A stretch of DNA of 64,000 nt, from the NCBI GenBank assembly GCA_021604865.1, contig BQJU01000026.1, forward strand, positions 1 through 64,000, given 5' to 3'. Both the position numbers and the translations under genes were made by a program. Below are positions 21,554 through 62,326 of this stretch, one piece after another. Source of the stretch: Saprospiraceae bacterium. GTDB taxonomy: Bacteria; Bacteroidota; Bacteroidia; Chitinophagales; Saprospiraceae. The notes beneath the pieces were generated by a model. The model searched no databases, had not been told where the DNA came from, and was given only the letters and a program-made list of their open reading frames with translations. Position 1 is the first letter of the stretch; each line of letters opens with the position of its first letter.

Positions 21554-23086
21554 TTATTTTGGGAAAACCCCCTTCGAAACAACTCTTTTCAAAAGAGGAT
21601 CATTGATTGCTTGCATTTGTTCCCTGATTTTTTCATCAAGTACTTTTAGAATGGCTTTGATCTCTTCTCTGGAATCGTAAATCATATTGATATTTTCCTC
21701 GGGATCTTTTGCAATATTGTATAGTTCATCGCGCTCCGGGTTGAGGAAGTCTCTGACCAGCTTCCATTCCGTGGTGCGGTAACTACGCATATAGGCTTTG
21801 CAATAGTTGATCATGCTGTATTCAGCGTAAAAATCATTGTTCCAATTTTCTACCTTTCCGCCATTAAGCAGTGGGATCAGGCTATGGCCGCGAATGATTT
21901 TTTTGGCGGGCAGTTTGGCCCCAGCCATTTCAACAATAGTGGGGTACCAGTCGAGACTAGAAATATTCTCTTCGATAACCGTCCCTGCTTTGGTAACGCC
22001 TGGCCAAAAGATAATTGCGGGTACTTTCAACGAATTGTCATATAAATTGGGACGGTATTTAGAGGTGATATTTTCGGTTGCAGGAGGAAGCGTATTGGTG
22101 ATCCAAATACCATTTCCTTTGTGCTCAATTCCGTTGTGGCCCATATTGTAGCCATGGTCTGAAGAAAAAATGATGATGGTATTGTTATCGATACCCCATT
22201 GCTTTAAGCTGGCTAATATGCGCCCGACATTTCGATCGATACCACTGACGCTGGCCAGGTATTCCCGCATTTTTTGTTTGGCCTTTTCTATATTCAGATC
22301 CGGATAGTTGGGATTGGGTAGGGTGGGGTCCATTGATTCATAAGGCGCCCAGTCTTCCGGGGCTACCGGTAGGAATTTGCCGTGTGGCGCCCGATAGTTC
22401 AGGCAAAGTAAAAAGGGCTCCTGTCTGTTGTTTTCTATAAATTCGAGCGCATCATTTGTCAGGATATCAGTGGTTAATCCCTTAAATTCGCTGACCTTAC
22501 CATCCTTTTCCAACGGTGGATTTTCAGGAGAAGTACCACCGCCTGTAAGTCCCATAAAGTAGTCAAACCCGTGATTGGTAGGGTGGTATTTTTTGTCTTC
22601 ATTTTCTATCCAGTCGCCAAGATGCCATTTGCCAATCAGCCCGGTTTTATAGCCAGCTTTCTGCAAGACTTCGGCAAATGTAATACTGGCCGGATCAAGC
22701 CCTACTGGGTTATCAGGATCGTATAATTTATGGCCAGGCTGGGCAATGAAATCATGGATACCATATTCGGTAGCGTACTGGCTAGTCATAATACTCGCTC
22801 TGGCTGGGCTGCAAACAGGGGTGGTGACAAAAGCATTTTTAAAATAGGCACCTTCCTGAGCCAGGTGATCCAGGTTGGGGGTATTGGCATTGTGGTTGCC
22901 CGAAATGCCTAGCGTCCAGGCAGCCTGATCATCGGTATAGATGAAAAGGATGTTGGGTTGCTGTTTTTGACCATTAACAGAAATGGCAATCACACAGCAA
23001 AATAGTGCAATAAGTGGCAACTTTTTCAGGAATAAGCCAATGGTATGCCCTAAAATTATAGCGGTGTATTTTGATGATTTACTCAT
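21554..23086 (-). CDS. Exported sulfatase, family S1 (C-S-P-A-R type)
   Basis: 510 residues from ATG 23086 (MSKSSKYTAI); upstream in-frame codons would overlap the aldolase gene. Signal region LPLIALFCCVIAISVNGQ. NILFIYTDDQAAWTLG has the metal Asp pair. TTPVCSPARASIMTSQYATE is the signature, with Cys92 as the formylglycine precursor and the less common Ala in C-S-P-A-R. KWHLGDW, YRAPHGKFLP and FSSDHGYNMGHNG follow. ELYNIAKDPEENINMIYD is the C-terminal signature. The resemblance is to the choline-sulfatase / N-sulfoglucosamine-type S1 enzymes widespread in marine Bacteroidota. It starts 10 bases after the aldolase stop, so the two are translationally close. Confidence 0.92.
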   Translation of the reverse strand: MSKSSKYTAIILGHTIGLFLKKLPLIALFCCVIAISVNGQKQQPNILFIYTDDQAAWTLGISGNHNANTPNLDHLAQEGAYFKNAFVTTPVCSPARASIMTSQYATEYGIHDFIAQPGHKLYDPDNPVGLDPASITFAEVLQKAGYKTGLIGKWHLGDWIENEDKKYHPTNHGFDYFMGLTGGGTSPENPPLEKDGKVSEFKGLTTDILTNDALEFIENNRQEPFLLCLNYRAPHGKFLPVAPEDWAPYESMDPTLPNPNYPDLNIEKAKQKMREYLASVSGIDRNVGRILASLKQWGIDNNTIIIFSSDHGYNMGHNGIEHKGNGIWITNTLPPATENITSKYRPNLYDNSLKVPAIIFWPGVTKAGTVIEENISSLDWYPTIVEMAGAKLPAKKIIRGHSLIPLLNGGKVENWNNDFYAEYSMINYCKAYMRSYRTTEWKLVRDFLNPERDELYNIAKDPEENINMIYDSREEIKAILKVLDEKIREQMQAINDPLLKRVVSKGVFPK

Positions 23087-23096
23087 AATGAGTCTT

Positions 23097-24044
23097 TTAT
23101 CTCGAAAGTGATATCGCTTCAACTTTAACAACCTCAATTTCAAATTCAAAGGCGAGCTGCTCAAAGACCGTCTGAATGGCATCTAGTTTTGAAAGCTCAT
23201 CAATCGACATTCCCGATCTGGGAACCCGGCAAACGGAGGTAATCGGCAGGCCTCTTTTTTGCAAAAACAATTTGGCAATATAAGGGTAGTTATGGTGAAT
23301 AATCGTATCCATAATACTTAGAGTGGCCTCAAATTTTGCCTGAATGGATGCTTCCCGCCAGTGTTTAACCAGGTAACTGAAAAGCTCCGGATACAAATTG
23401 GCAGCAATGGGTGTAAGCCCTCTTGCACCAGCTTTAAGGGAAGCCAAACCCGTAGGGATATGGGCATTGTACACACTCAGGGGAGTGCCTTTCACGGCGG
23501 CTATTTTTTCTTGAATGGACTCCATCAAACAACTGGTATCCTTGTGATATAAAAAGCGACCGGTATGTGCCAGCCACCCCAACAATTCAGGGGAGAGCAG
23601 GCGCTTAAATGGAACGGGACATTCGTATAAGCCCAATGGAATATTCCCCGTTTTTGCCAACAATTCTTCCATTTTCTTTTTAAACACAGCTTCCGGCTCC
23701 AGTTCACTACACAACTGGCTGGTGCTGATAACCACGGCAGCAACACCGGTAGCATAAATCTTTTTGATAAAGGAAGCCATTTCATCAATGTCATGACCAA
23801 AGGAACCCGTACTTACCACCGGAATGCGTCCGGCGACGGTATCTACTACTGTTTTTGTAACCTGAATGCGTTCTTCGCTAGTCAATTGAAACATTTCACT
23901 AGACAGGCAATTGGCAAACAGGCCATCCGCACCAGTAGCAATATAAAATTCGGTTAGCTGTGCCAGTCCTCTCAGGTCTAGCGTATTATCCTCCTGAAAA
24001 GGGGTTAACATTACAGGCCATAACCCTTCTGGTAATTTTTCCAT
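23097..24044 (-). CDS. DapA/NanA-superfamily class I aldolase or lyase
   Basis: 315 residues, cytoplasmic, a TIM barrel of the dihydrodipicolinate synthase / N-acetylneuraminate lyase superfamily. The opening LPEGLWPVMLTPFQED is standard. The Schiff-base Lys is Lys168 in FLYHKDTSC and the partner Tyr is Tyr140 in GLYECPVPF. The usual pyruvate-binding G-[TS]-T-G-E loop is replaced by C-L-S-S-E (46-50), so the substrate may differ from pyruvate-derived ones. Family reactions include cleavage of sialic acids and of 2-keto-3-deoxy sugar acids; either would suit a glycan locus. It lies between the FG-GAP lipoprotein and a sulfatase, 10-30 bases from each. It is not called nanA because no other sialic-acid gene is present. 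Confidence 0.85.
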   Translation of the reverse strand: MEKLPEGLWPVMLTPFQEDNTLDLRGLAQLTEFYIATGADGLFANCLSSEMFQLTSEERIQVTKTVVDTVAGRIPVVSTGSFGHDIDEMASFIKKIYATGVAAVVISTSQLCSELEPEAVFKKKMEELLAKTGNIPLGLYECPVPFKRLLSPELLGWLAHTGRFLYHKDTSCLMESIQEKIAAVKGTPLSVYNAHIPTGLASLKAGARGLTPIAANLYPELFSYLVKHWREASIQAKFEATLSIMDTIIHHNYPYIAKLFLQKRGLPITSVCRVPRSGMSIDELSKLDAIQTVFEQLAFEFEIEVVKVEAISLSR

Positions 24045-33494: not shown

Positions 33495-35273
33495 TTAATA
33501 CAGTGGGCCATAATTTTTACAGGCTCTAAAATCAGCACCTTCCGCATCCATGCCAAAGGAAGCCCAGTCTTTTGGACGGAAAATTCTGCTATCCTCTATA
33601 TTGTGCATACACACGGGAATGCTCAGCATAGCACATAATGTGATGAGCTCATGGCCATAATGGCCATAACTAAAGGCACCGTGATTAGCCCCCCAATTGG
33701 CCATCACCGAATACACATCCTTGAAGGGACCCTTTCCGGTAAGCCTTGGCACAAACCAGGTAGTTGGCCAGGTGGGATCAGTGCGCTCGTCTAGGGTTTT
33801 GTGTACTTTTTCCGGCAATTCTACGGTCCAGCCTTCTGCAATTTGCATCACGGGCCCCAGGCCGTCAACGATGTTGATCCTGCACATGGTGACCGGCATA
33901 TTTCCTCTAGTCACAAAATGAGAGGAATACCCCCCTCCACGGAAATATTCGTAGGAAGCCGGTGGCCAATCCGTTGCATCCAGACATTTTTGTGCCTCTT
34001 CTCTTGTAATATCCCAAAATGGTTTCATGGCTGGCTGGCCTTCTATTTCCTGCTGACCGGTGCCATCCAGGGTCGAAGAACCGGAGTTAATGAGGTGGAT
34101 GATGCCGTTTTCAGCCCTGCCTTCCAATTGATGACCAGTAACCCTTTTCACCGAAGCAGGACTCCAATAGGTACGTACATCTGAAAACATCTGTGCTTGA
34201 TTGGTCAACAAATACCCAAACAACATAGAGATTCCATTAAGCGAATCATTTTCAGTAGCCATCATGAAGGGCGCGCGTATGCCATTCCAATCAAAAGAAG
34301 AATTGAGTATGGCTTCCATAAAGTCCCCGTTAGGCATAAAATCAGTCCATTGGCGTTGCCCCTGAAACCCTGCTGCAATGGCATAATGGCCCAAGGCTTC
34401 TTCCCCAAAGCCCAATGCCTCCAGTTTTGTATTGCCAATCATTAAATCCCGGCAAATCAGCGTCATTTTGACCACCATTTCCCATTCCTGATCCATGCGT
34501 TGACGGGATTTGTGTTTCTCTTTTGGGTTTAGGTTTTTGCCTTCCGTACAGTTCTTTTTAGTCCATTTCAGGGCTTTTTGAAATTCTTCCGGGTCATAGA
34601 TCTTCTGCTCCAATCGCCGTTGTACCTCACTCATATCCACAAACTCATTGCGCATGCCGAGGTAGTGCTGGAAGAAATTTTCATTGATAATAGATCCTGC
34701 GATACCCATAGATACCGATCCTATTGATAGATAAGATTTTCCTTTCATGGTGGCAACGGCTAAGCCGGCACGGGCAAATTGCAGCAGGTATTGTTGCACC
34801 TCTTCCGGAATGCTTTCATCATTACTGTCCTGCACATCCTGTCCATATATGCTGAAAGCAGGTACTCCTTTTTGTGCATGTCCGGCAAGCGCAGCGGCGA
34901 GGTATACAGCTCCTGGTCTTTCGGTACCATTAAATCCCCAAATGGCTTTGGGGTGAGTAGGGTGCATATCGATAGTTTCAGTGCCATAACACCAACAGGG
35001 CGTTACGGTAATGGTGAGCCCTACACCTGTTTTTGCAAATTTTTCTGCACACCTTTGGGCCTCAGGTACCCTGCCAATCGTGGTGTCCGCTATAACACAT
35101 TCTACCGGACTTCCATTGTAATATTTCAAGCGAGAGGATATCAGTTTGGCTACCCTTTGTGCCATACCCATGGTGCTTTCTTCCAGTGATTCTCTAATTC
35201 CACCCAAGCGAGCATCGATAACAGGCCGAATGCCCACTTTGGGCATGTTTCCCACGTGGTGATGTTGATCCAT
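33495..35273 (-). CDS. fucI: L-fucose isomerase
   Basis: 592 residues, essentially the length of E. coli FucI (591). It converts L-fucose to L-fuculose (and D-arabinose to D-ribulose) in the cytoplasm using a divalent metal. Visible family blocks: [51 protein letters not shown], and [18 protein letters not shown]. The catalytic and metal ligands correspond to Glu in [12 protein letters not shown], Asp in [11 protein letters not shown], and His in [12 protein letters not shown]. There is no signal peptide. It lies between the symporter (45 bases upstream) and a sialidase-like gene. No fuculose kinase, fuculose-phosphate aldolase or fucosidase of a recognised family is nearby, so the rest of the pathway must be elsewhere or differ. 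Confidence 0.95.
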
Positions 35274-53399: not shown

Positions 53400-56300
53400 T
53401 TAATTCAACCGCAATATCTTCACCTCCACCCGCTGATTCTTTCGTCGGCCATCAGAAGTGGCATTGCTATATTTAGGTTCCCGTTTACCATATCCTTTGT
53501 ATACTACCCGACTGGGGTCAATGCCCCGCTTCACAATGTGGAGCGCTGCAGACTTGGCACGTGCTGTTGATAAGTTGTCGCAATATTCATGAGGCGGCTG
53601 GTTGTTTGTATGGCCACCTACCTCAATGACGACCAGAGGATTCTCTTCGAGGAAATCTGCAATTTCATTGAGTACCGGATAGGAGTCAGCCGTCATATTG
53701 GTACTATCAGCTTCAAAATAGATTTGCGAAACCTGAAGCGTTTGCCCAGCACGTAATCGGCCTGCAGTTAGGTCGGGCATGATTTTTTTGCCGGTTTCAA
53801 AGTTGAGGCTGGCACTACAACCATTGGCATCTGTGACGCTGACACTATGTGCTCCCGTAGGTAGTGCATTGGCATCGGTACCGGTTTCTCCATTGTCCCA
53901 ATTTACTGTGTAACCAGCAGTTCCTCCTTTGATTGTCAGGCTGGCTTTTCCATCTTTACTATCCTCGTTAGTGGCGGGTTTGTTGGTTTTTAAGGCGACG
54001 ATCAATTCATCAGGCACACTGACGGCCAATTGTGCTTGTTGGCTTAAACCACTAGCATCGGTGACCGTAACGGCATAGTCGCCAGCACCGAGCGACCCTG
54101 CCTCTGCACCGGTTATCCCGCTGGCATTCCATTTATACTGATAAGGCGGCTTTCCTCCTTGTACCTCAACTGCAAGGGCAGCTGATTGCTCGCCAAAACA
54201 CTTGATTTTTGATGTTTGCACCAGATTAATACTGAGGGCAATAATGTTTTCAGTAATGTCAATTTCTCCGCTGACGCCGCACCCATTTTTGTCCAGGACA
54301 GTTACTTTATGTATACCGGGAGTAAGTTTAGTAGCTGTCGCAGTAGCTTCACCATTGTCCCAGGTATAATCGTAATTACCGCTACCTCCTGCTACCACCG
54401 CTTTGGCCTGACCGTCAGCATTACCGGTACTAGCCTGGCCGGATTGGCTTACTTTTAAGGTTAAAGGCTGCGGTTCGGTAATGGTAGCTTTGGCAACCTG
54501 ATTTAAGCCACTGGCATCCGTAACCGTGACCGCGAAGTCGCCAGCTGTTAGATTATTGGCTTGAGCACCACTAATATCACTGGTATTCCATTGGTACTGA
54601 TACGGAGGTTTTCCGCCCTGCACCTCAACGGCTAAGGCAGCTGTCTTTTCGCCAAAACATTTGATCACTGTTTTTTGTACCAGATTGACATTCAGGGCAA
54701 GGATGTTTTCCGTAATATCAATTTCGCCACTAATCCCACACCCATTTTTATCCAGCACCGTCACTTTATGTAAACCGGGAGTAAGTCTAGTGGCTGTTGC
54801 ATTGGCCTCACCATTGTCCCAGGTATAATCGTAATTGCCGCTACCGCCTTCTACTGAAACTTTGGCCTGGCCATCAGCATTTCCGGTACTGGCCGGGGTA
54901 GATTGTTTTACGTTTATCGATAACGGCTTGGGTTCGGTAATGGTCGTTTCAGCAACCTGGCTCAAGCCACTAGCATCCGTAACGGTAACGGATAAGTCAC
55001 CCGCAGACAGGTTATTGGGCTGTGCGCCGCTGATTTCATTAGTACTCCATTGGTATTGATAAGGAGGTTTTCCACCCACTACCTCGACTGCCAAGGCTGC
55101 CGTTTGCTCACCAGAACACTTGATATCCGATTTTTGTACCAAATTTACATTGAGGGCGAGGATATTTTCGGTAATCTCAATTTCGCCACTGACACCACAC
55201 CCGTTTTTATCCAGGACCGTCACTTTGTGTATGCCGGGAGTCAGTGTGGTAGCTGTCGCGTTGGCTTCACCATTGTCCCAGGTATAATCATAATCACCGG
55301 TACCGCCGTCTACTGAAACTTTGGCCTGGCCGTCAGCATTACCTGTGCTGGCCGGGGCGGATTGTTTTATTTTTAAGGATAAAGGTTTGGGTTCAGTAAT
55401 GTTAGCGTCAGCAGTCTTTGTGTTTCCCTCCGCATCGGTGACGGTGAGCTGGTATTTACCTGCAGCTAGTCCGGGAGCTATTTCACTAACGCCATTGCCG
55501 GCACTCCATTTGTATTGAAAGGGCGCTTTCCCTCCACTGACTTTAGCCGTAAGCGCAGCCGAGTTTTCACCAGCACATTTGATGGGGGTGCTGATGACCA
55601 ATTCCACGTCAAGTGGCAAAATATCTTCGTTGATATCAATAGTGGCAGTCGTTGAGCAACCAGCCTCGTCAGTGATCGTGACCGTATGCGTTCCGGCAGT
55701 CAGCTTTTCGGCCGTTTCGGTCGCTTCATTTGTATCCCAGCGATAGGTGAATTTTCCACTCCCTCCTTCAGCACTTACTTTGGCTTTACCATCCGCCTTA
55801 TTTGTGGTAGCTGGTGATTTGGGGCTTATGCTAGCCGTTATCGCCTTTGGGTCATTGAGGCTAATTTGGGCCGTAGCGGTATTGCCCGCTGCATCGGTGA
55901 CCGTAATTTGGTAGTCGCCCGCACTAAGGTCTATGGCTTGTGCCCCTTTGAGGTTGGCTTGATTCCATTTGTACACATACGGCCCCTGGCCACCAGTGGT
56001 TGTGGCTTTCAGTTCCGCTTCGGCAGCACCTTGGCAATTGTTGCCCTTTGTTTGTTCTAATGCCACTGACAAGGGGGCTAATGCCTCCGTTATCGTAACG
56101 GTGGCCACCGAAGTGCAGCCATTTTCTCCTGTAACAGTTACCTGATGGTCACCGGTGTTGAGCTGTTTGGCAATGCGATTTTGCTCGCCATTATCCCATT
56201 TAAAAGTGTATTTAGCATTTTCAGGAGTAACAGATATGGCAGCATGTCCGTCAGCATTGCCACCAAGGCTGGCGGGTTTTTGTTGACTGATGTTGATAAC

Positions 56301-57428
56301 CAGGCTATTGTCCTGAATAGTAGTTTGTGCCTCTACTGTATTCCCACTTTGATCGGATATGGTGACGGAGTAGGTCCCGGCACCCAGATTTTTGGGGTTT
56401 TCGCCCCTTATTCCACCCGACCAATTATAGGTATAAGGGGGCTTTCCACCACTAGCTAGCACTTTTAAAGCCGCATTTTTGGCGTTAGCTTCACACGACA
56501 ATGGGTTTTGCAGGATCAGTTCGGCCGTCATCGAAGCAGCCCGGCCAATATAATACACGCCTTTATCATTGGTGCCCACCCATAAAGCGTCATCTTGGTC
56601 AACCGCAATACAATTGACAAATTGGCTGGTAAATTCCTGCGCTGGACCAAAAAGGTCGTATTTTTCAGTATCAAAATGGTAGCGGACCACGATTTCGGAA
56701 GCTATCCATAAGTTGCCCCGACTGTCAAAGGCAATATCTTTTACCTTTCCTTCCACCATTCGGGGGGCAATTTCAAAAGCATAAAAGTCTCCTTTTCTAT
56801 CCATCACCAGGACTTCTCCATCGCTAACCACCCAAATATTACCTTCGTAATTGGCGATGGCTTCAATGCTAAAAAACTTGCCATAGGCTTTTTCTTTACC
56901 ATCCTCCACCAACAACAATCCATCATAGCTGCCAATCCATACTCTCTTTGAAGAAGTGGCCATAATCGTTTGTATGGCATTCGAGCGAAGTTTGGAGTTT
57001 TTGGTAGATAGGGTTTCTATCAGTTCCAAACTTGGATTGGTTTTGAAATGATAGACGCCGGCATTTTTAGTACCCACCCACAGTTCCTTGCGGATTTTAT
57101 CTAAATGGGCGGTTGTGATTTGGGCGAAATCATCCCCCATCAGTCGCTTCATGTCGGCCTTTGGAAAGTTTAGTTCCTCATTTCCATCAGGTACATTGAG
57201 CAGCGACCATTCTTCCGCGCCTATTTCGATGGGATTGGCAAATTCGGGGGATTGCACCAAAAATACGCCTTTGGTATCGGCAACCCACCTATTGCCTTTT
57301 TCATTTACATAAACGTTTTTAATGGCAACGTTGCGATCAATGGCTGCGGCACGCCTCACTTTCATCACCTCTTGCGCCTTGAGCGCTCCAAAACTTAGAC
57401 ATAGTAGTAAAATCAGTAATTTTCTCAT
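53400..57428 (-). CDS. Giant SprB-repeat protein with N-terminal propeller and C-terminal OmpA domain
   Basis: 1342 residues. Signal peptide LLILLLCLSFGALKAQ. Residues about 20-300 are a two-component-regulator-type propeller (NRWVADTKGVFLV, ELWVGTKNAGVYHF, RVWIGSYDGLLLV, LWVGTNDKGVYYI). About 305-1215 hold six composite repeats of 153 residues, each of two SprB-like modules: one of the type C-x-G-x-x-x-A-A-L with GGKPPYQYQW, one of the type GNADGQAKVSVEGGSGNYDYTWDNGE. About 1225-1342 are an OmpA-like peptidoglycan-binding domain (IYFEADSTNMTADSYPVL, VEVGGHTNNQPPHEYCDNLS, RGIDPSRVVYKGYGKREP). SprB is the mobile adhesin of gliding Flavobacterium, but this protein is wall-tethered and lacks a T9SS tail. 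No sprF/porP-like gene follows. It is probably a large cell-envelope adhesin or spacer. Confidence 0.88.
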   Translation of the reverse strand: MRKLLILLLCLSFGALKAQEVMKVRRAAAIDRNVAIKNVYVNEKGNRWVADTKGVFLVQSPEFANPIEIGAEEWSLLNVPDGNEELNFPKADMKRLMGDDFAQITTAHLDKIRKELWVGTKNAGVYHFKTNPSLELIETLSTKNSKLRSNAIQTIMATSSKRVWIGSYDGLLLVEDGKEKAYGKFFSIEAIANYEGNIWVVSDGEVLVMDRKGDFYAFEIAPRMVEGKVKDIAFDSRGNLWIASEIVVRYHFDTEKYDLFGPAQEFTSQFVNCIAVDQDDALWVGTNDKGVYYIGRAASMTAELILQNPLSCEANAKNAALKVLASGGKPPYTYNWSGGIRGENPKNLGAGTYSVTISDQSGNTVEAQTTIQDNSLVINISQQKPASLGGNADGHAAISVTPENAKYTFKWDNGEQNRIAKQLNTGDHQVTVTGENGCTSVATVTITEALAPLSVALEQTKGNNCQGAAEAELKATTTGGQGPYVYKWNQANLKGAQAIDLSAGDYQITVTDAAGNTATAQISLNDPKAITASISPKSPATTNKADGKAKVSAEGGSGKFTYRWDTNEATETAEKLTAGTHTVTITDEAGCSTTATIDINEDILPLDVELVISTPIKCAGENSAALTAKVSGGKAPFQYKWSAGNGVSEIAPGLAAGKYQLTVTDAEGNTKTADANITEPKPLSLKIKQSAPASTGNADGQAKVSVDGGTGDYDYTWDNGEANATATTLTPGIHKVTVLDKNGCGVSGEIEITENILALNVNLVQKSDIKCSGEQTAALAVEVVGGKPPYQYQWSTNEISGAQPNNLSAGDLSVTVTDASGLSQVAETTITEPKPLSINVKQSTPASTGNADGQAKVSVEGGSGNYDYTWDNGEANATATRLTPGLHKVTVLDKNGCGISGEIDITENILALNVNLVQKTVIKCFGEKTAALAVEVQGGKPPYQYQWNTSDISGAQANNLTAGDFAVTVTDASGLNQVAKATITEPQPLTLKVSQSGQASTGNADGQAKAVVAGGSGNYDYTWDNGEATATATKLTPGIHKVTVLDKNGCGVSGEIDITENIIALSINLVQTSKIKCFGEQSAALAVEVQGGKPPYQYKWNASGITGAEAGSLGAGDYAVTVTDASGLSQQAQLAVSVPDELIVALKTNKPATNEDSKDGKASLTIKGGTAGYTVNWDNGETGTDANALPTGAHSVSVTDANGCSASLNFETGKKIMPDLTAGRLRAGQTLQVSQIYFEADSTNMTADSYPVLNEIADFLEENPLVVIEVGGHTNNQPPHEYCDNLSTARAKSAALHIVKRGIDPSRVVYKGYGKREPKYSNATSDGRRKNQRVEVKILRLN
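53790..56510 (-). repeat. Six tandem 459-bp coding repeats
   Basis: An anchor (CCATTGTCCC or its diverged form) recurs at 53890, 54352, 54811, 55270, about 55728 and about 56188, giving a period of 459 bases (462 once), that is 153 codons. The copies around 54240-55370 are the most alike at DNA level, while the outer copies are more diverged. Confidence 0.8.
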
Positions 57429-57962: not shown

Positions 57963-60900
57963 TTAATTAGCTGAAGACATCCCGGCTTCCTTGGGAGAAA
58001 ACCCAAAACGCTCTTTAAAGCGGGTTGAAAAATAGGGTTGGCTACCAAATCCAATCATAAATGCTACTTCGCTAACATTTCCTTTTTGTTGTTGCAATAG
58101 CTCAATTGCTTTATCCAGTCGGTAATTGCGCAAAAATTCGGTCGCCGACTGGTTGGTCAGGGCTTTTAATTTGCGGTGTAATTGTGAACGACTCATTTGT
58201 ACCATGGTTGCCAATTGTTCTGTCGATAGCGTTTCGTCATCTATTTTTCGATCAATAGCCTGGCATAGTTCTTTAATAAATTGGTTGTCGGGAGGCGTGA
58301 AAAATGCGGTATCTTTTTTGGCTTTCCCAATTTGGGTGCTGTATCTTTCCTGAAGTTTCTTGCGGGTTGAAACCAGGTTTTCGATGTGCACCTTGAGTTC
58401 ATCCGTGTTAAAAGGTTTGGTCAAATAGGCATCTGCTCCGATTTTGAGTCCCTTCATCCTACTTTCAAAAGAAGATCTTGCTGTGAGCAAAATAATGGGG
58501 ATATGTGCTGTCTGAATGTTGACTTTGAGCTGTTTGCAAAGGCTATATCCATCCATTATAGGCATCATGATATCGGAAATAATCAAATCGGGAATAAATT
58601 TGACTGCTTTGCGCAATCCTTCGGCTCCATTCTGTGCAGTGATGATTTTAAATTTAGACTGCAATACCGATTGCATAAAATCTCGCAAATCAATATTGTC
58701 TTCTACGATCAACACAAGCGGCAATTCGGCGGCGTTCTTGTTGCTTTCCTGTTGGTTTCTTGCAACTGCCGGATTAGACTGACCCGTGTAGTTGATCACC
58801 TCTTCAGACCCTTCACCCATAACGGAGCGAGTTAGCTGTATAGGCAGGTCAATGGTGAAAACGGTTCCAACTCCTTGCTGGCTTTCTACCTGAATGGTAC
58901 CGTGCATCAGATTGACTAACTCTTTCACTAAGGCCAAGCCAATGCCTGTTCCTGATTGCTTATTTGTATCATTCAAATGGTGGTTTTCTACCTGATAAAA
59001 GCGATCAAATACCTGATCCAGATGATCGGCTTCAATGCCAATGCCATTATCTTTTATCTTGAGATGAAGCATGGGGTTTTCCTTTTCGCTAAAGGAGACG
59101 TCCAGTTCCAATTCAATATTGCCACCGTTAGGGGTGAATTTTAAAGCATTGGACAATAGATTGGAGATGATCTGCTCTATTTTATTTTTGTCAAATGACA
59201 ATTCAGTTTGTTGTCTGGACCCTTGCCAATGTAGGTTGATCCCTTTTTTATCAGCCAATGGAATAAACGACTGAAAGACTTCCCAAACAGTATCTACCAC
59301 ATTACCACTTTGCAGATATAATGGCATCTGTCTACTTTCAATTTTAGAAAGATCGAGCAGTTGATTGACCAATCGGAGCAAACGACGGGCATTGGTTTGG
59401 ATAAGTGAGGCCTTTTCACGGGACACACCCTCCTTTAATTCCTGGATCAAATGGCGAGCCGGTTCGATAATTAGCGTAAGCGGTGTTCTGAATTCATGGG
59501 TGATATTTGAAAAAAAGTTGGTTTTCATTTGGTTGAGATCAGCCAGTCGTTCTGCTTCTTTTTGTTCAAAAGCAAGTTGGTTTTTGAGCCGGATACGGTA
59601 AAGCTGAAAACGGTAGATTCCCCAGGCTATGGAAAGAAAGATTAAGGCAAAACCCAGATATGCGGGAGTGGTCTGCCACCAGGGAGGCCTGATCCTTATG
59701 TGGATTTCTGTAGGAGGGTCACTCCATACCATCGACCGGTTGGTGCCCGATACCTTGAAAGTATAATGGCCAGGAGCCAGATTGGCATAGGTCACTTCCC
59801 GGGTATAATCGGCCTCTACCCATTGCTTATCTACGCCCTCCATTTGATAGCGATACCGGTTGCGAGAAGAAACGGCAAAGTCAAGCACCGAAAATTTGAA
59901 ATGCAACAAATTTTGCTGATAACTCAAATCCAGTTGATGGGTATATTCTATTGGCTTATGTAATATTGAGGAATCCCGGAAATCCATTTTTTCATTATTG
60001 ACTTTCAAGTCGGTAATAACAACATTGGGTGGTGAGCCGGGAGTTTGAAGTTCAGTAGGTTGAAAGATATTGAAGCCATTGACACCGCCAAAGAGCAATT
60101 GTTCATCCTGTCCTATGGCGGAAGATCGGGTATTGAATTCATTGTTTTGCAATCCATCAAATGAGGTATAATTGTCGAAGGTCCCTCTGCGGTAATTATA
60201 ACAGGATAATCCTCGGTTGCTACTCAGCCACAATTGCCCACTTTTATCTGACAAAATGCTATAAATTACATCATTGGGTAAACCATCTCTAGTGGTGATA
60301 TTTGTAAACCGGGCTTTGTCTTTTTCCATCCGGTTGAGCCCGCCTCCCTTGGTGCCGATCCATAATAAATTGTCATCCAATGGATCGGGTAGGATAGACA
60401 AAATATAGTTTTCACTTAACGAATGAGGCACACCGCTCTGGTGATGGAATATTTGGAATGGTTCCTGTGCTGCTTTATCTTCGTCAAACCGCAAAATGCC
60501 AAATGGTGTACCGATCCACAATGTTCCGGATGCATCAAAAGAAAGCACGGATGAAATGATTTCTGACTTATATGCCGGTACATGGTGGGCATAACTAAAA
60601 TAAGAAAATACTTTTTTGATGGGATCAAATTTGATAATCTCCGGTCCTGCTGTAGCCATCCAGATATTGCCTTGTTTGTCTTCTGCCAAATTGGCTAGTG
60701 GATAGGGCTTTCGTTGATAATAATACTCCTGTAATTGTTTCGTCTCTGGATCGTAGTGCACCAACCTGACGCCCTCTTCGGTTATGGGATAATGAAGCCA
60801 GAAGTCCCCTTTTTTATCCTGCAACATCCAGCGGCAATCTGCAACAATTTTCGGAAATTCACGAAGGGGGGATAGCTGTTTGGTGTCAGGATCCAATAGG

Positions 60901-62048
60901 TGAAATTTGCCATTGGTCCAAACCCAGGTTCTATTTTCCTGATCCACATAAAGCTGGCGAATGCTTTTGTTTTCTGCAAAGTGATTAAAGACGGAGGCCG
61001 CAGGATTGTATTTGATCAACCCATAACCATTGGTGCCCAGCCAAAGGACACCTGTAGCATCAATACAAAAGGAGGGGAGATTATGTATACCTGTTTCCTG
61101 AAAAATGGGAGAAATGGCTTTGGATACTTCAGCCTTTGCATCAAATTGAAACAAACCGGAGGAGGCACCATAAATGGTTCCTTCTTTTCCTATGGCTAGT
61201 CGAATAGAGATGGAAGATAAGGATTCCGGCAATGGATAGGCTTGACTCACCCCTTGTTTTACTTTATAAATACTATTGCTTTGCCCAAAAATTAGCGTGC
61301 CATCAGCGGTCTGAACAATGCTGTTAACAGGACAATCAGGTTCTTCCTTACACACAAAAGCGCCATCCAGCCATTGGTGGGCTTCCTTTTCCTGACTTTT
61401 TTTCAGAAATATACCAGATTGAGTGCCCAATAATTGATCCCCATCATTTTGATTGAGGATGCAAAGGACTCGGGTTTCCATCAAATTGCCGGCTAATAAA
61501 ATGGGGGTACGAGTGATTTTGAGCGCATTGACTTGAGTCGGTTGAATGGCGGCACCTTTTTGGACTACTCCTGGAATAGTGATCTTATCCAGACCTATAC
61601 TGGTACCGACCCAGATATTACCTTGTTTATCTTCCTCAATGGCATGAATATTATTGGATTGTAGGGTGTTATTACGGCCAGGTTGGTGCATCAGGTGATG
61701 GAATTTACCGGTTTGCCGGTCGAAGAGATTCAACCCGTTATTATTGGTTCCCACCCAAAGCCAACCTCTGGAGTCTTCAAAAATAGTGTTGACGATATGT
61801 CCCGAGAGGGAAAAGGTATCCGCAGGTTGGTGGTTATAATAATCAAAACTATATCCATCATAACGGTTTAGTCCGTCTTTGGTCGCAAACCAAAGGAAGC
61901 CATCTGAATCTTGCAGTATTTTGAAAATCATACCCTGAGACAACCCATCTTCAATGGTGATCTTATCGACTTTGACGTGTTGAGCAATGATCAAACAAGG
62001 TAACATCAATACAGCTAAGAGCCCTGTAATTCGTCTTTTGTTATTCAT
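57963..62048 (-). CDS. Hybrid two-component system sensor/regulator (one-protein HTCS)
   Basis: 1361 residues from ATG 62048 (MNNKRRITGLLAVLM). Signal region LLAVLMLPCLIIAQ. A periplasmic two-bladed-propeller sensor spans about 25-730 (TIEDGLSQGMIFKILQDSDG, FLWFATKDGLNRYDGYSF, WLWVGTNNNGLNLFDRQTGK). A Y_Y_Y domain follows (RYRYQMEGVDKQWVEADY), then a transmembrane helix (LGFALIFLSIAWGIYRF). The kinase H-box is FFSNITHEFRTPLTLIIEPA (near 853), ATPase NALKFTPNGGNIEL and GIGLALVKELVNLMHG, receiver VLIVEDNIDLRDF with phospho-Asp in LIISDIMMPIMDG (near 1158), and a C-terminal AraC HTH ending PYFSTRFKERFGFSPKEAG. Most such proteins control adjacent SusC/D loci; here no susC/D is adjacent, so its target is unknown. 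Confidence 0.95.
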   Translation of the reverse strand: MNNKRRITGLLAVLMLPCLIIAQHVKVDKITIEDGLSQGMIFKILQDSDGFLWFATKDGLNRYDGYSFDYYNHQPADTFSLSGHIVNTIFEDSRGWLWVGTNNNGLNLFDRQTGKFHHLMHQPGRNNTLQSNNIHAIEEDKQGNIWVGTSIGLDKITIPGVVQKGAAIQPTQVNALKITRTPILLAGNLMETRVLCILNQNDGDQLLGTQSGIFLKKSQEKEAHQWLDGAFVCKEEPDCPVNSIVQTADGTLIFGQSNSIYKVKQGVSQAYPLPESLSSISIRLAIGKEGTIYGASSGLFQFDAKAEVSKAISPIFQETGIHNLPSFCIDATGVLWLGTNGYGLIKYNPAASVFNHFAENKSIRQLYVDQENRTWVWTNGKFHLLDPDTKQLSPLREFPKIVADCRWMLQDKKGDFWLHYPITEEGVRLVHYDPETKQLQEYYYQRKPYPLANLAEDKQGNIWMATAGPEIIKFDPIKKVFSYFSYAHHVPAYKSEIISSVLSFDASGTLWIGTPFGILRFDEDKAAQEPFQIFHHQSGVPHSLSENYILSILPDPLDDNLLWIGTKGGGLNRMEKDKARFTNITTRDGLPNDVIYSILSDKSGQLWLSSNRGLSCYNYRRGTFDNYTSFDGLQNNEFNTRSSAIGQDEQLLFGGVNGFNIFQPTELQTPGSPPNVVITDLKVNNEKMDFRDSSILHKPIEYTHQLDLSYQQNLLHFKFSVLDFAVSSRNRYRYQMEGVDKQWVEADYTREVTYANLAPGHYTFKVSGTNRSMVWSDPPTEIHIRIRPPWWQTTPAYLGFALIFLSIAWGIYRFQLYRIRLKNQLAFEQKEAERLADLNQMKTNFFSNITHEFRTPLTLIIEPARHLIQELKEGVSREKASLIQTNARRLLRLVNQLLDLSKIESRQMPLYLQSGNVVDTVWEVFQSFIPLADKKGINLHWQGSRQQTELSFDKNKIEQIISNLLSNALKFTPNGGNIELELDVSFSEKENPMLHLKIKDNGIGIEADHLDQVFDRFYQVENHHLNDTNKQSGTGIGLALVKELVNLMHGTIQVESQQGVGTVFTIDLPIQLTRSVMGEGSEEVINYTGQSNPAVARNQQESNKNAAELPLVLIVEDNIDLRDFMQSVLQSKFKIITAQNGAEGLRKAVKFIPDLIISDIMMPIMDGYSLCKQLKVNIQTAHIPIILLTARSSFESRMKGLKIGADAYLTKPFNTDELKVHIENLVSTRKKLQERYSTQIGKAKKDTAFFTPPDNQFIKELCQAIDRKIDDETLSTEQLATMVQMSRSQLHRKLKALTNQSATEFLRNYRLDKAIELLQQQKGNVSEVAFMIGFGSQPYFSTRFKERFGFSPKEAGMSSAN

Positions 62049-62326
62049 GTAATTACAAAATCTTAAATAATGGTTGTGCTGGAAACGGGGGGATTCCAAA
62101 CAGATTTAACTGCTTGTTTGCTAGTCACCTTTGAAATGATTTCGAAAAATATTTCTTGGAGATTGCAAATAAGTACCTAGGTCAACCCTAAACATTTAAT
62201 TTGGGAGAGGGAGGTAATAGTTTTGTAAGAATTACAAGTATGGAGTGTTGTGTTTTATTGGAAGGGTAAATTAATTAAATTCCCAATATTATACCCTTTC
62301 ATTTTCTTATTTTTACCAAAAAAGAC

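Follow-up and report, generated by a model that had tools for sequence, protein, structure and literature searches.

A gene in a Saprospiraceae genome raises the question of what is served by a single protein that joins a regulator-type propeller, a long array of SprB-like modules and an OmpA-like domain, and of what sets the length of the array. The gene lies on the minus strand at positions 53400–57428 of a window of 64,000 nucleotides (contig BQJU01000026.1 of assembly GCA_021604865.1, forward-strand positions 1 to 64,000), and its product is called the window protein here. Described below are its domains and repeat period, the whole-unit lengths and copy-number changes of its relatives, the fixed identity of the end units, an invariant pair of cysteines and the lack of a type IX secretion system (T9SS) tail. 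The explanation that we tentatively favour, and which stands close to, if short of, an even chance of being right, is that the protein is a Sec-exported presenter tethered to the cell wall, with a propeller head, six disulfide-stapled links of two modules each and an OmpA anchor.

Domain organization and age of the repeats

The ORF has exactly the limits given above and encodes 1342 aa from its ATG. A preliminary description of this DNA had placed a propeller, SprB-like modules and a C-terminal OmpA-like domain in one chain, and the Pfam scan bore this out: SprB (PF13573) was matched in 11 stretches (E 3.5e-80; 263.8 bits, cut-off 28), OmpA (PF00691) at residues 1237–1331 (E 1.4e-17; 64.3 bits, cut-off 27.2) and Reg_prop (PF07494) with E 1.3e-12 (46.7 bits, cut-off 20.4), and the same scan gave no tetratricopeptide repeat (TPR), barrel, kinase, receiver or Y_Y_Y domain. 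Residues 1–18 (57375–57428, minus strand as for all parts of the gene) form a putative signal peptide, read directly from the sequence, and are followed by Gln19. A single β-propeller of the two-component-regulator type comes next (residues 20–298, 56535–57371; Pfam, profile match and predicted fold). The predicted fold of residues ~20–298 aligned to propellers with Z about 24, and the family profile matched the sensors of hybrid two-component systems (HTCSs) among solved structures, the best being 4a2l (E 5.7e-41). BT4663 (4a2l), BT3049 (3v9f) and BT4673 (3ott) belong by profile to the same propeller family, but the window protein differs from these sensors in having one propeller domain of ~280 residues and none of the kinase, receiver or Y_Y_Y domains. 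The OmpA-like domain lies at 53436–53720 (residues 1237–1331; Pfam, alignment and predicted fold), with predicted local distance difference test values of 80–94 per 10-residue block.

Between propeller and OmpA-like domain, residues 301–1219 form a six-repeat array. Comparison of the protein with itself gave 53.3 % identity at an offset of 153 residues and 46.1 % at 306, the next best offset (78) giving 14.3 %; over the array, DNA identity at an offset of 459 was 58.6 %, whereas the highest value reached by any of 1000 codon shuffles was 31.5 %. Five units have 153 aa and the last has 154 aa, in agreement with the period of 459 bp, 462 once, reported earlier, the longer last unit being the 462. 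The two alternating SprB-like modules reported within each composite repeat were likewise found; they are called A and B here and have family means of about 72 and 76 aa. Self-comparison and unit alignment placed unit 1 (position-specific first unit; Cys312 and Cys438) at 56070–56528, unit 2 (Cys465 and Cys591) at 55611–56069 and unit 5 (Cys924 and Cys1050) at 54234–54692. Unit 3 (Cys618 and Cys744), with a second module similar to its counterparts in units 4 and 5, lies at 55152–55610, unit 4 (Cys771 and Cys897), nearest to unit 5, at 54693–55151 and unit 6 (position-specific last unit; Cys1077 and Cys1204) at 53772–54233.

The preliminary description had taken the central copies to be nearly identical at the DNA level and had read this as recent homogenization or expansion; neither statement survived closer comparison. 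The closest pair, units 4 and 5, shared only 78.4 % DNA and 80.4 % protein identity, DNA identity was 69.9 % for units 3 and 4 and 43.1 % for units 1 and 2, and the longest exact repeat within the gene was 29 bp. Nei–Gojobori estimates for units 4 and 5 were 0.105 for non-synonymous (dN) and 1.207 for synonymous (dS) substitutions, and the resulting dN/dS of about 0.09 suggests that purifying selection on the units is strong. From the DNA identity and dS of this pair and the short exact repeats, the duplication in the window gene is old, and collapse of its repeats during assembly, another earlier concern, is unlikely with no exact repeat longer than 29 bp. Sliding identities showed the more similar block to be half a unit out of register: it opens with the second module of unit 3 and closes with the first of unit 6. 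Recent duplication was found in relatives, with 100 % protein identity between units 6 and 7 of L168 and 99.3 % between units 5 and 6 of L178.

Relatives differ in length by whole units

A search of the named genomes with the full-length protein as query gave no match; with the propeller alignment, 80 loci were kept from 254 relatives, 19 of the 80 running off a contig end and not being counted as complete. The window protein, 58 complete OmpA-matching genes from these loci and 29 from other genomes made up a set of 88 proteins. Unit and tree work used 86 of them; L146, which contains a stretch of unknown residues, and gL074, which lacks OmpA, were set aside. The spacer between the last propeller motif and the OmpA motif was measured in 66 proteins, outside which fell 21 rows lacking one of the two motifs, and L146.

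Each additional unit lengthened the spacer by 151.7 residues (residual SD 3.4). All 66 spacers stayed more than 15 aa clear of a half step, and the same held for the 35 dereplicated proteins. Spacers measured 377–389 residues for two units, 530 for three, 681–683 for four, 827–837 for five, 981–995 for six, 1133–1143 for seven, 1281–1295 for eight and 1752 for 11, and these counts of 2 to 11 agreed with those from hidden Markov models (HMMs). Six was the commonest unit number (29 of 66; 16 of the 35 dereplicated). One-unit proteins (583–683 residues) formed a clade of their own with 11 rows, and the one that was scanned with Pfam, L118, had the same three domain families as the window protein; two-unit forms had 731–806 aa. 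Exact repeats longer than 60 bp were absent from 80 of 85 genes in relatives. In L143, L168, L178 and L187 exact repeats of 128 bp or more were present, and their unit counts are therefore less safe.

Unit number was inherited but labile: on a tree of propeller and OmpA sequences from the 75 proteins with at least two units, at least 30 changes were required, compared with 38–46 in 200 label shuffles. Among 30 pairs with at least 85 % identity outside the array, unit number was equal in 80 %, and pairs 86–91 % identical outside the array could already be one unit apart, as with L154 (seven) and L165 (six). The seven complete genes examined in one genus (g55) had 4, 6 or 8 units, the assemblies including ones of 7 and 9 contigs. 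On the same tree, the nearest rows to the window protein were L125 (six units) and L124 (four units).

The units at the two ends of the array remain recognizable from protein to protein, whereas those in between turn over. Among the dereplicated proteins, 32 had at least four units. In these, the first unit was nearest to the first unit of another protein in 30 of 32 cases and the last unit to another last unit in 27 of 32; for 55 of 105 inner units, the nearest unit belonged to the same protein.

A cysteine pair divided between the two modules

Two cysteine columns were filled in 420 of 420 aligned units from the 86 proteins, with a spacing of 125.8 ± 1.0 residues within the unit. In 380 of the 420 units these were the only cysteines, both were present in all 11 one-unit proteins, and beyond residue 25 no further cysteine occurred in four proteins that form two closely related pairs (L160 with L167, gL110 with gL111). 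In the window protein the early cysteine is the only one in module A and the late cysteine the only one in module B; pairing inside one module is therefore excluded there.

Ordinary SprB modules of the same genome had both cysteines in 91 of 129 cases (simple count over 12 proteins), whereas in the family of the window protein one is retained by module A and the other by module B; the ordinary SprB proteins served as a control. Wherever a module had an early cysteine, the module that directly followed it had a late one (77 of 77; Fisher p 8e-4), and a second detection scheme gave 49 of 49 (p 0.007), with 56 modules left unassigned; the two schemes disagree for some modules. In 4 of the 12 arrays (L207–L218) the first detected module lacked the late cysteine, and one of these proteins, L217, contains a short stretch with the same split A/B cysteine pattern. 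Taken with the register and array-end counts weighed below, the support that this control gives to a rule of early-to-late pairing is mixed.

In the standard immunoglobulin (Ig)/fibronectin-like topology, strands 1 and 2 are joined by a loop at the far end of the module, and the last strand is preceded by a loop at the near end, so that an early cysteine would face the late cysteine of the module that follows. In the AlphaFold model, Cys618 falls between strands 607–614 and 624–631 and Cys744 just before strand 745–752. Read together, strand positions and topology would have the A–B junction stapled and the B–A junction not. We predict on this model a disulfide staple within each A–B pair and a free joint between pairs; a staple of this kind would explain why A–B pairs, never single modules, are gained and lost.

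Export signals and the putative wall anchor

Gln19 was present in every aligned row, both in a set of 37 and in an overlapping set of 51 (alignment A1 covered 36 of 60 loci and A2 50 of 69 candidate rows; A4 was made without L146, which has unknown residues, and L179). A glutamine after the signal peptide corresponds to the Bacteroidetes Q-rule, which the relevant passage of PMC5837995 applies to most substrates of Sec and signal peptidase I. No T9SS sorting domain was found among 11 Pfam families at E up to 0.01, a genome-wide search with TIGR04131 gave no match at the window gene, and when the last 150 aa were compared with NCBIfam, the best 25 of 38 families were all of OmpA type. The contrast with T9SS-exported SprB, drawn when the gene was first described, was upheld: all nine of the other SprB-repeat proteins of the genome that were scanned (12 were fetched) end in a T9SS sorting domain, six of type B and three of type A, and the window protein does not. 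The genome as a whole has a large T9SS-exported set, with 59 TIGR04131 (T9SS type B) matches, 55 of them above the cut-off.

The OmpA-like domain carries a GHTN motif, and Asn1275 in this motif, Cys1283 and Arg1290 align, as judged from sequence, with the side chains Asp576, Asn584 and Arg591 through which PorE contacts peptidoglycan, as given in an excerpt of PMC7192894. Across 56 aligned rows including the window protein, the aspartate was replaced by asparagine in all 56, the asparagine by cysteine in 39 and alanine in 17, and the arginine was kept in all 56. The pattern was matched by 11 of 20 other OmpA regions of the genome, with aspartate at the first position in nine and asparagine in two. 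The domain is highly conserved, with a signature of its own. The proposed role as a wall anchor is plausible, though not of the standard form, since two of the PorE contact side chains are replaced; the domain probably binds peptidoglycan, in a manner that may differ in detail. One of the two asparagine cases (L219, the same protein as L010; 679–1869, plus strand, contig C62 of the same genome) has 396 residues with a signal-like start and an unlike head, in which Pfam matched no SprB; its OmpA region is 57 % identical to that of the window protein and has the same GHTN signature, with alanine at the position of Cys1283. The C-terminal domain also resembles those of the OmpA-like lipoproteins YiaD, PA1041 and Pal, from which the window protein differs in its large N-terminal region and apparent lack of a lipid anchor, its scores to these models all being below the curated cut-offs.

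Distribution and gene neighbourhood

Of 199 genomes sampled from the GTDB family to which the window belongs (f1), 98 gave a match to residues 1–309 at E ≤ 1e-15. Long-type matches (E ≤ 2.8e-41) were found in 49 of these genomes and weaker ones (E ≥ 3.6e-33), in open frames mostly of about 580–730 residues, in the other 49; three genomes (G012, G104 and G133) had both types. A propeller profile at E ≤ 1e-30 gave no match outside f1: the matching genomes in the order sample (47 of 298) and the class sample (2 of 295), both of which include f1 genomes, were all from f1, and weaker relatives could be missed at this threshold. The combination of domains, once called unusual, is thus unusual relative to other families but not within f1, where the N-terminal region is matched in about half of the sampled genomes. 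The named relatives were mostly metagenome-assembled genomes titled Saprospiraceae; isolates include Phaeodactylibacter xiamenensis (L163, eight units) and P. luteus (L178, seven units), a genus that NCBI places in the Haliscomenobacteraceae, order Saprospirales. A description of a propeller/SprB/OmpA protein was not found in the open-licence PubMed Central literature, which is weak evidence of absence; the envelope protein is apparently undescribed, and its single parts are already known.

No conserved neighbour gene was present in the 80 named loci, some of which are cut by contig ends: the largest cluster comprised 16 loci, its gene presumably encoding a glycerol-kinase-like protein, and the next six. 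An HTCS gene (57963–62099, minus strand; Reg_prop, HisKA, receiver and AraC-type helix–turn–helix domains) ends about 530 bp upstream of the window gene. Relatives of it lie near just four of the 80 loci, and the idea that the propeller was borrowed from this neighbour was rejected, there being only weak local matches (best E 1e-06). Elsewhere in the window, a sulfatase (21554–23182, minus strand) and an L-fucose isomerase (33495–35273, minus strand) suggest a locus for using a sulfated fucose-containing polysaccharide.

Explanations for the protein and its variable length

The favoured reading would operate as follows. The protein would be exported by Sec to the envelope, probably to the periplasm, where the C-terminal OmpA-like domain would hold peptidoglycan or a close variant of its usual ligand. 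The N-terminal propeller would be the working head and bind a carbohydrate or protein partner; by analogy, the propeller's relatives suggest glycans or proteins as its ligand. Six Ig-like A–B links would chain head to anchor. In each of them the cysteine of A, in the loop between the first two strands, would bond to the cysteine of B, before the last strand, stapling the A–B junction and leaving the B–A junction between links as a joint. Reach would evolve by gain and loss of entire links in the interior of the array, whereas the two end links, of which the first would be fitted to the propeller and the last to the OmpA-like domain, would be kept.

Several observations weigh against this reading or its parts. 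Within the ordinary SprB arrays of the genome, the opposite register (a late cysteine followed by an early cysteine in the next module) gave p 0.36 and 0.03 in the two schemes. The first detected module carried the late cysteine in eight of 12 arrays in both schemes, and the last carried the early cysteine in six of 12 or seven of the eight assigned, depending on the scheme; the array ends therefore misfit the cysteine rule unless further modules went undetected. Predicted template modelling scores were 0.50 and 0.62, and the arrangement of the domains was not predicted with confidence. The unit cysteines could instead be free or bonded between molecules. Bonds between molecules are possible in view of the disulfide-linked OmpA oligomers of other Bacteroidota described in part of PMC12635249, a portion that deals with SprF, PorG and GldK disulfides and makes no visible link to the window protein. 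Two of the three peptidoglycan-contact side chains are unlike those of PorE, and without a conserved neighbour gene no partner is indicated. An OmpA match in the same frame was absent from three of 61 complete named relatives. These three (L142, 8983–10728; L132, 5429–8596; L197, 4015–7368) are complete frames in which the propeller is present, with either a frameshift or true loss of the anchor. Finally, an Ig-like module measures about 4 nm, and twelve would extend to nearly 50 nm, beyond the usual width of the periplasm; such a chain must run alongside the wall, fold up or cross the outer membrane.

The last of these options leads to a surface appendage, in which only the OmpA-like domain is periplasmic, chain and propeller cross the outer membrane through a partner pore, and the length of what would be an adhesin tunes its reach to surfaces or cells. 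A modelled reach beyond the periplasm and the T9SS tails of the other scanned SprB-repeat proteins are in keeping with this, as is the fold comparison of the chain, in which fragments of GhpA ranked first among solved structures (Foldseek E 8.6e-18 and 1.9e-12); GhpA is the grappling-hook protein of Aureispira, a genus of the Saprospiraceae. GhpA is far larger, with 5,898 residues, and assembles as a heptamer according to PMC13319060, and the likeness seen was confined to the fold of the Ig-like modules. The fold matches had TM-scores ≤ 0.40 and root mean square deviations ≥ 8 Å, unrelated eukaryotic Ig chains followed close behind, titin with E 3.3e-10, and a comparison of the array sequence with Protein Data Bank (PDB) chains at E up to 1 listed no GhpA. 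The window protein itself has neither a T9SS sorting domain nor a Pfam barrel domain, a conserved neighbour is absent from the 80 named loci, and one- or two-unit forms would extend little past the membrane; a surface appendage is accordingly regarded as a minority possibility. A part of the secretion or gliding machinery, with the propeller docked on a T9SS or gliding-track component and the OmpA-like domain fixed to the wall, is suggested by PorE of the Porphyromonas gingivalis T9SS (NF052230), a periplasmic wall-binding protein in which TPR, propeller, Ig-like CRD and OmpA follow one another (from the portion of PMC7192894 on its architecture). The order of propeller, Ig-like domain and C-terminal OmpA is shared, and the OmpA region of the window protein scored 60.0 bits to the PorE model. 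That score covers OmpA alone and is far below the 600-bit cut-off, and unlike PorE, a lipoprotein with TPR and one CRD, the window protein has a Reg_prop-type propeller, twelve SprB-like modules, asparagine and cysteine at two contacts, no Pfam TPR and, to judge by its N-terminal residues, glutamine rather than cysteine after the signal peptide. Better PorE-like proteins occur elsewhere in the genome (best 393 bits, also below the cut-off), although such weak matches say little because six of 14 control genomes also match below the cut-off. With 101 of the 199 sampled family genomes lacking a match to the N-terminal region, which would be odd for a core part, this explanation is improbable.

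It is also conceivable that length has no function, the whole-unit steps being recombination between 459-bp repeats that expand neutrally. Repeats recombine in register, unit number is labile, and near-identical neighbouring units were seen in L168, L178 and L187. Such expansion sits poorly with the low dN/dS of units 4 and 5, with both cysteines being kept in every unit, with end units that retain their identity and with a spacer residual of merely 3.4 aa, so that recombination may account for the steps but not for these constraints; purely neutral expansion is considered unlikely. A stronger form of the favoured presenter, in which the protein is a length-adjustable envelope tether that evolves by units of one disulfide-stapled pair of Ig-like modules, is possible but doubtful. 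In this form, division of the SprB cysteines between alternate modules would make the links rigid and leave the joints free, and species of the Saprospirales would set the reach of the wall-held propeller, perhaps through the outer membrane, by gaining or losing whole links between fixed end links.

Implications for Saprospirales and for SprB-repeat proteins

The module family and the long tandem arrays are those of SprB and the SprB-repeat T9SS adhesins (PF13573), from which the window protein is set apart by its alternating split-cysteine modules, propeller head and OmpA tail and by the lack of a T9SS C-terminal domain. Its relatives provide a natural series with 1, 2, 3, 4, 5, 6, 7, 8 and 11 links, with head and anchor of one kind throughout and in comparable species, and whether the length of long envelope proteins matters and is adjusted thereby becomes testable. 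The cysteines also yield a candidate rule for SprB modules, by which an early cysteine pairs with the late cysteine of the next module. The rule, if true, would apply to the module junctions of many Bacteroidota adhesins.

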